A stretch of DNA of 37,994 nucleotides from the NCBI GenBank assembly GCA_018971605.1, contig JAGXAL010000007.1:1-37994 (forward strand), written 5' to 3'. The DNA comes from Natronospirales bacterium (lineage in GTDB: Bacteria; Pseudomonadota; Gammaproteobacteria; Natronospirales; REEB76). The position numbers were made by a program, and so were the translations under genes. This document shows positions 31,326 to 32,990 of the stretch, piece after piece. The notes under the pieces were generated by a model. That model did no database searches, had not been told where the DNA came from, and saw nothing but the letters and a program-made list of their open reading frames with translations. Positions within the stretch are counted from its first letter, which is position 1; the number at the start of each line of letters is the position of its first letter.

Positions 31326-31354
31326 TTGACAAGCTCAAAGACATCATGGATAGT
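31326..31354 (+). promoter_or_regulatory. Candidate sigma70 promoter for the metY leader
   Basis: TTGACA (31326-31331), 17-nt spacer, GATAGT (31349-31354). Confidence 0.5.
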
Positions 31355-31362
31355 CGCGCGCC

Positions 31363-31467
31363 ATGGAAACCTTGTTGAGTTTTGCGATTTTTGCCTTTGC
31401 CTGCATGTGTATGTGCATGTTCATGCGCATCCCCGTGCGGGCACGCGCTGTTTTGCAGGCACGATAA
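31363..31467 (+). CDS. Candidate Met/Cys-rich leader peptide METLLSFAIFAFACMCMCMFMRIPVRARAVLQAR
   Basis: Codons TGC ATG TGT ATG TGC ATG TTC ATG at 31402-31425; stop TAA at 31465-31467 lies in the loop of a hairpin; precedes the terminator and metY. Confidence 0.55.
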   Translation: METLLSFAIFAFACMCMCMFMRIPVRARAVLQAR

Positions 31468-31489
31468 AGCCGCAAACAGCCAGATTCCC

Positions 31490-31521
31490 AACCCGCACGG
31501 CACAGCCGCTGCGGGTTTTTT
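31490..31521 (+). terminator. Rho-independent terminator upstream of metY (candidate attenuator)
   Basis: AACCCGCA(CGGC-ACA-GCCG)C-TGCGGGTT followed by a T run to 31521; no plus-strand gene of ordinary size upstream. Confidence 0.8.
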
Positions 31522-31577
31522 AATGCCTGAATTCCAGCCTTAAACACCTCCAGCGACTGCTCCCGCGGTGACGGAAA

Positions 31578-31633
31578 CATTGCGCGTGAATGCGCAATGC
31601 GGACGCGCTTGTCTCGAAAAAAGGGACACGCGC
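31578..31633 (+). promoter_or_regulatory. Two consecutive hairpins in the metY 5' region
   Basis: CATTGCGC-GTGAAT-GCGCAATG (31578-31599); GCGCTTGTCTC-GAAAAAA-GGGACACGCGC (31605-31633). Confidence 0.5.
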
Positions 31634-31661
31634 AACACACAACCAGTTTGAGGAGCATGAC

Positions 31662-32990
31662 ATGAGTACCGAGACACCACCGAACTACCGTTTTGAAACG
31701 TTGCAAATCCACGCAGGCCAACAACCGGCGCCCGGGACCAACGCGCGCGCGGTGCCCATTTACCAGACCACCAGTTACACCTTCGACGACGCGCAGCACG
31801 GCGCCGATCTCTTCGCGCTGAAGAAATTTGGCAACATTTACACGCGCATCATGAACCCGACCACCGACGTGTTCGAGCAGCGTATCGCGGCGCTGGAAGG
31901 CGGGGTAGCGGCGCTCGCGGTTGCCAGCGGCCAGGCGGCGCAACTGCTGGCGATCACCACGCTGGCGCAAGCAGGCGATAACATCGTCTCGGGCAGTGCG
32001 CTCTACGGCGGCACTTACAACCAGTTCAAGGTCACGCTGCCGCGCCTCGGCATCCAGGTGAAATTCGTGGACAGCGACAAGCCGGAGGATTTCCGCCGCG
32101 CGATAGATAAAAACACCAAGGCACTGTACGTCGAGACCATCGGCAATCCGGGCTTTAACGTGCCGGATTTCGAAGCGCTCGCCAAAGTGGCACACGCGGC
32201 TGGCTTACCGCTGATCGTGGATAACACTTTCGGCGCTGCCGGCTACCTCGCCCAACCCATCGAGCACGGTGCCGACATCGTGGTGGCTTCGGCCACCAAA
32301 TGGATCGGTGGCCATGGCACTTCCATCGGCGGGGTGATCGTGGATTCCGGCAAGTTCGACTGGGGCAACGGCAAGTTCCCGCTGTTCACCGAGCCCTCGC
32401 CCGCCTACCACGGCCTGAACTTCTGGGAAACTTTCGGCCCCGAGGGACCGTTCGGCAATATCGCCTTCATCATCCGTGCACGCGTCGAGGGCTTGCGCGA
32501 TCTCGGGCCCGCGTTATCGCCGTTCAACGCCTTCCTGTTCCTGCAGGGACTGGAAACCTTGTCGCTGCGCGTGCAGCGCCATGTGGACAACAGCCTGGAA
32601 CTGGCGCAATGGCTGGAGAAACAGCCGGACGTGGCCTGGGTGAATTATCCCGGTCTGTCGCAACATCCATCTCATGCGCGCGCAAAAAAATATCTGCGTC
32701 ACGGTTTCGGCGCGGTGCTGTCCTTTGGCATTCGCGGCGGCGAAGCCGTGGGCCGCGGTTTCATTGACAAGGTGAAACTCGCAAGCCATCTGGCCAACAT
32801 CGGTGATGCCAAGACACTGGTGATCCACCCCGCCTCCACCACGCACCAGCAACTCTCGGCGGAGGAACAGCAGAGCGCGGGTGTCACGCCGGACCTGATC
32901 CGCGTGTCGGTGGGCATCGAGCACATCGAGGACATCAAGGCGGATTTCAAGCAGGCGTTTACCGCTATCCGCCAGAAGGCTGCGGCATGA
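31662..32990 (+). CDS. metY: O-acetylhomoserine aminocarboxypropyltransferase/sulfhydrylase
   Basis: [72 protein letters not shown] at 31650. Confidence 0.93.

Follow-up and report, generated by a model that had tools for sequence, protein, structure and literature searches.

Results

Genes and features of the locus

The window, i.e., the whole stretch of 37,994 nt that was analysed, carries on its plus strand three consecutive genes, metY, metX and hom. Domain searches agreed with the names that these genes had been given in the original prediction, and according to the domain matches their products make homocysteine, the methionine precursor. The metX and metY genes overlap by 4 nt. The divergent neighbours on the minus strand were assigned by domain searches to DUF3311 and to an MctP-type permease. 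A spacer of 386 nt lies between this divergent pair and metY and holds a promoter, a leader ORF and a terminator, the latter separated from metY by 140 nt. The features are listed below.

31326-31331, plus strand: -35 box TTGACA of the leader promoter (consensus scan, 10/12 matches, 17-nt spacer)
31349-31354, plus strand: -10 box GATAGT, ending 8 nt before the leader ATG
31363-31467, plus strand: leader-peptide ORF of 34 codons, METLLSFAIFAFACMCMCMFMRIPVRARAVLQAR, predicted to be leaderless; counterparts in 8 further loci
31398-31443, plus strand: protector hairpin (1:2), Met/Cys codon region paired with the antiterminator arm; -26.7 kcal/mol, z -4.2
31402-31425, plus strand: putative Met/Cys sensor codons C-M-C-M-C-M-F-M; a run in all 9 leaders
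31433-31441, plus strand: antiterminator arm (region 2) CCGTGCGGG, 9-bp complement of 31492-31500
31447-31480, plus strand: linker hairpin around the leader stop codon, seen in folds, role doubtful
31490-31521, plus strand: intrinsic terminator (regions 3 and 4, T6) with U-tract, 5' arm 31492-31500; -19.8 kcal/mol
31650-31655, plus strand: metY Shine-Dalgarno sequence GAGGAG
31662-32990, plus strand: metY, O-acetylhomoserine sulfhydrylase (TIGR01326, 711.6 bits)
32987-34108, plus strand: metX, homoserine O-acetyltransferase (PRK00175 above cut-off, TIGR01392 below cut-off)
34096-35232, plus strand: hom, homoserine dehydrogenase (Homoserine_dh PF00742, 139.5 bits)

Relatives and distribution

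Relatives were gathered by similarity of the MetY protein and not by leader, so the leaders were not selected for. The comparison comprised nine loci, all the metY-metX-hom operons with upstream sequence, from three gammaproteobacterial groups. Besides the window (G000), these were G004 and G006 from the same genus, G015 from another family of the same order, G165 from another family, and G250, G388, G387 and G384 from one further family with two genera. A tenth operon, in G386, ends at a contig edge and was left out. The gene order was the same in nine relatives, with identities to the window of 46-74% for metX and 40-74% for hom. All nine loci shared one layout, consisting of a promoter, a leader ORF with a Met/Cys run, an antiterminator arm immediately behind this run, a stop codon and a terminator, and its recurrence in distant relatives indicates that the layout of the switch is real.

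No further gammaproteobacterial metY was found in the 370 relatives searched. A Lysobacterales metY-metX-hom operon (L081, 2701-3010) was without a Met/Cys leader, and at the loci checked in cyanobacteria, Rhodocyclales and others no leader before metY passed the Met/Cys screen. Two distant loci, L089 and L093, displayed a weak Met/Cys cluster but lacked the complete layout. Pattern searches for the layout in front of other genes in 369 genomes of the class and 398 of the phylum gave no new convincing site, as judged by the sequences shown. Of the 11 genomes in the genus of the window, 3 had a metY match at full strength. A second, distant metX is present in the genome of the window (G000:C91:7241-8320, L146), and a distant MetX of this kind is carried by most genomes of the order. 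This wide occurrence, together with the patchy one of metY-metX-hom, suggests that the attenuated operon is accessory.

Leader promoter and predicted leaderless start

A perfect TTGACA, a 17-nt spacer and a -10 box were found at all nine loci, and the distance from the -10 box to the leader start codon was 6-8 nt in every case, which leaves no room for a Shine-Dalgarno site. From this constant geometry the transcript is predicted to start at the start codon or no more than about 2 nt away from it, which in the window would give a 5' UTR of roughly 0-2 nt, and the leader ORF should consequently be translated as a leaderless message. The original prediction was silent on the position of the -10 box and hence on this property of the ORF. 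The leader start codon was ATG, with one exception: G387 (L108, leader start at 1270) has GTG despite its predicted leaderless mRNA.

Leader ORF and the Met/Cys run

The 34-codon ORF was present as originally placed, with seven Met or Cys codons in a stretch of eight. A short ORF rich in the cognate codons, for which translation is predicted, precedes metY-metX-hom at all nine loci, as expected for an attenuator of the trp/his type. Among the nine leaders the runs read CMCMCMFM, CMCMCMLM, MMACMCM, CMMCMC, MCMCCMLM, MCMC, MCMCC and MCCCLM, with at least two Met and at least two Cys in every leader. The Met/Cys codons were kept while the nucleotides differed (ATGTGTATGTGCATG, ATGTGTTGCTGC, TGCATGATGTGCATGTGT), and two Cys columns were invariant in the leader-peptide alignment. 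Outside the run the peptides were dissimilar, with 18-47% identity to the window peptide, G004 excepted. In a census of short ORFs over the 856 kb of DNA retrieved (duplicates counted, length filter applied), at least six Met/Cys per eight codons occurred in 5 of 12,584 distinct ORFs, every one of them a metY leader; the remaining metY leaders were under this threshold or beyond the length filter. A chance repeat of Met and Cys codons was thereby ruled out, by the census as well as by the comparison of leaders.

Terminator and antiterminator arm

The terminator was found where it had been predicted, as a hairpin of -19.8 kcal/mol followed by T6. Likewise, the complementarity between 31433-31441 (CCGTGCGGG) and 31492-31500 (CCCGCACGG) extended over the full 9 nt. 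Intrinsic terminators with a U-tract were present between leader ORF and metY at all nine loci, with energies from -15.6 to -24.1 kcal/mol and ends 54-61 nt past the leader stop codon. At each locus the best partner of the terminator 5' arm was situated -2 to +12 nt after the Met/Cys run, and this antiterminator arm ended 17-29 nt ahead of the leader stop. Compared with dinucleotide shuffles, the duplex of the two arms had p = 0.009 in the window and p <= 0.05 in seven of the nine loci, the exceptions being G387 (0.37) and G384 (0.09). The combined Fisher value of 8e-9 overstates independence, since some of the loci are close relatives. Together, the shuffle tests and the ORF census exclude chance.

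The GCGGG/CCCGC core of the duplex was almost constant across lineages, because it also serves the terminator. The outer pairs change on both sides, e.g., pair 7 is found as G-C, C-G and A-T; this covariation was read from a hand-made alignment. Both the Met/Cys codons and the alternative pairing, which had been proposed for checking in relatives, were thus conserved in the nine loci.

These results bear on whether promoter and terminator could belong to a constitutive small RNA or a small protein unlinked to metY, e.g., a Cys/Met-rich metal-binding peptide. A short peptide of this composition could bind metal, and terminators behind small genes are commonplace. However, the peptide is unconserved beyond the Met/Cys run, its place ahead of metY-metX-hom is retained across nine operons, and so is the complementarity of region 2 to the terminator arm. 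We regard this explanation as very unlikely.

Control of the terminator by a riboswitch, or by another RNA that binds a ligand or protein, with the short ORF as an incidental element, would be in line with the frequent occurrence of SAM/SAH riboswitches at methionine genes, and betaproteobacteria have a described metXZ RNA element with a terminator (PMC4239095). The Rfam search that had been suggested for SAM, SAH and T-box elements gave no covariance-model match above the gathering score in the window or the eight related loci, and these classes were ruled out. Raising the limit to E values up to 5 returned chance-level hits only (miRNA families; Trp_leader with 18 bits against a 41-bit cut-off). 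Furthermore, what is conserved is codon identity and arm complementarity, with no fixed aptamer sequence. Riboswitch control is therefore very unlikely.

Protector hairpin and ribosome-footprint folding

The local hairpin at 31411-31430, which had been pointed out earlier, is real and forms the apex of a longer hairpin (31398-31443) in which the Met/Cys codons pair with the antiterminator arm. This protector was strong in the window, G004, G006, G165 and G250, with pairing probabilities of 0.82-0.89, so that termination is predicted as the default in these five. Codon-shuffled leaders of the same composition formed it in 0-1% of cases for the window, G004 and G006, 3% for G165 and 8% for G250. 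The protector was weak in G015, G388, G387 and G384, where the naked leader folds as antiterminator. The nested hairpin at 31447-31480 was seen in folds as well, and was recognisable by eye in G004 alone among the relatives; as a conserved part of the switch it was not supported beyond G004.

Folding with masked ribosome footprints, a check that the original prediction had proposed, indicated that the switch is thermodynamically feasible. These are equilibrium calculations, in which kinetics are ignored. For eight of the nine loci, a ribosome placed on the Met/Cys run gave an antiterminator probability of about 1, apart from individual low positions in G387 and G384; past the run, the probability was at most 0.14. 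At G165 the antiterminator was not favoured at most ribosome positions on the run. Early stalls likewise freed region 2 in several loci. With the ribosome at the stop codon, the model still favoured antitermination in G006, and the antiterminator persisted in G015, G388 and G384 when a narrower footprint was used; a wider footprint lowered it in G015, G388, G387 and G384.

One step of the original prediction has to be revised. A ribosome at the stop codon had been proposed to block the long-range pairing directly, which is unlikely in this genome, since such a ribosome stands 22 nt beyond the antiterminator arm. Folding of the window predicts that, once the ribosome has passed, the arm instead returns to pairing with the Met/Cys codon region and forms the protector. 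Direct blocking is possible in G015, G388, G387 and G384: there region 2 ends 17-19 nt before the stop, and a stop-codon ribosome may therefore cover it. Judged from this spacing, a second route to termination may exist.

RNA features downstream of the terminator

Between terminator and metY, at 31578-31599, there is a perfect 8-bp hairpin, CATTGCGC GTGAAT GCGCAATG. Its counterpart in G006 is CATCGCAC...GTGTGATG, changed on both sides; the hairpin may therefore represent an RNA element that is conserved behind the attenuator. In addition, TGCTCC (31558-31563) is complementary to GGAGCA (31652-31657) at the metY Shine-Dalgarno sequence. Similar pairings were observed in most of the nine loci, e.g., GGCTCCG/CGGAGTC in G384; they were individually weak, with a combined shuffle p of 0.0016. 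A second, translational layer of control through this pairing is possible.

Discussion

Proposed mechanism

We propose, with a probability of roughly 0.87, that the locus carries a ribosome-mediated (trp-type), leaderless transcription attenuator of metY-metX-hom that senses Met and/or Cys. The core of the original prediction, an attenuator driven by Met/Cys codons, is thereby supported, as codons and alternative pairing are conserved and no riboswitch matches the region. Among the features tested for attenuators of the trp/his kind, the codon-rich ORF, the terminator and the antiterminator arm were found throughout, and the protector was variable among loci.

Transcription would begin at the leader ATG or not more than about 2 nt from it, giving a leaderless mRNA on which ribosomes would load. 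Scarcity of Met-tRNA and/or Cys-tRNA would stall the ribosome on the run at 31402-31425 and so break the protector that the run codons form with region 2. The freed region 2 (31433-31441) could then pair with the emerging 5' arm of the terminator (31492-31500), the terminator would be blocked, and RNA polymerase would read through into metY-metX-hom. With both Met and Cys plentiful, the ribosome would reach the stop codon and the protector would refold behind it, leaving region 3 free, so that the terminator at 31490-31521 forms and transcription stops. An untranslated leader would lead to termination as well. Where the protector is unstable, as in some relatives, region 2 may be covered by the stop-codon ribosome itself.

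Whether the attenuator integrates the two sulfur amino acids, so that lack of either Met-tRNA or Cys-tRNA stalls the ribosome, is in our view evenly balanced. If it does, the switch would report the overall supply of sulfur amino acids rather than a single end product. Since translation initiation also uses a methionyl tRNA, Met shortage may, on this reading, act additionally on initiation at the leader. The leader could also sense one of them alone, the codons of the other being kept for the pairing of regions 1 and 2 and thus partly a structural by-product; we consider this possible and lean somewhat against it. In its favour, the run doubles as a strand of the protector, and UGC/UGU (pairing with GCA/ACA) and AUG have complements of a similar kind. 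Yet even leaders with little protector (MCCCLM in G384, MMACMCM in G015) contain at least two Met and two Cys codons in the run, and the mix is thus not dictated by structure alone.

An attenuator of this kind at metY would be a small, naturally occurring case in which to ask if two amino acids can be read by a single attenuator, and how attenuation is coupled to translation initiation on a leaderless message. A leaderless ORF combined with an arm complementary to a terminator can also serve as a search rule for further cases. MetJ was considered as a regulator and rejected, since a search of 19 genomes from the order returned no match and the E. coli control was positive. Proteobacterial methionine genes are described as governed by the repressors or activators MetJ, MetR, SahR and SamR, or by RNA elements free of leader peptides (PMC4239095). 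A leaderless switch reading Met/Cys would be a further, translation-based means of control, in an order whose searched genomes gave no MetJ match.

Comparison with known systems

The metXZ RNA element of betaproteobacteria resembles the present one in placing a terminator/antiterminator before methionine-synthesis genes; it is defined by six conserved sequence blocks and is described without a leader peptide (PMC4239095). The metY leader element is absent from the accessible parts of the terminator survey of Naville and Gautheret and of the methionine survey of Proteobacteria by Leyn (PMC4239095). The combination of a leaderless ORF, a mixed Met/Cys run, an intrinsic terminator and a gammaproteobacterial metY-metX-hom operon was not found described in the open-licence papers searched.

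Several systems share parts of this combination. In Sinorhizobium meliloti, trpL is likewise a leaderless leader ORF with a terminator/antiterminator switch, but with Trp codons and before trpE(G) (PMC7298713). Leaderless short polycysteine ORFs of mycobacteria, for which leader candidates were listed in PMC1262725, are also attenuators built on codons for a sulfur amino acid, and attenuate in response to cysteine (Canestrari 2020, as cited in PMC9031893); they differ in having Cys only, in preceding cys operons and in having no conserved terminator hairpin.

Two further systems are methionine leaders. The metL of Streptomyces lividans, upstream of metNIQ, is leaderless, belongs to a methionine-related operon and encodes a peptide ending in GARCMCRRMCAF, a mixed Cys/Met cluster as in the present case. 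It differs in its transporter target, its actinobacterial host and its lack of a typical intrinsic terminator, and its authors emphasise Met and Thr (PMC8079986). In Campylobacter jejuni, a short RNA upstream of the methionine-synthesis genes metBA carries the MetL leader, a small ORF containing Met codons, for which its authors proposed attenuation by stalling. According to its description, MetL has 20 aa with 3 Met codons, Cys is not mentioned, the search required a ribosome-binding site, and the leader is limited to C. jejuni, C. coli and C. doylei (PMC3847290). The metY leader, in contrast, is predicted to be leaderless, has a mixed Met/Cys run, occurs in three gammaproteobacterial groups and has its alternative arms traced. 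Met leader peptides have thus already been proposed in Campylobacter and Streptomyces, and the metY leader is an unusual variant of the classic switch.
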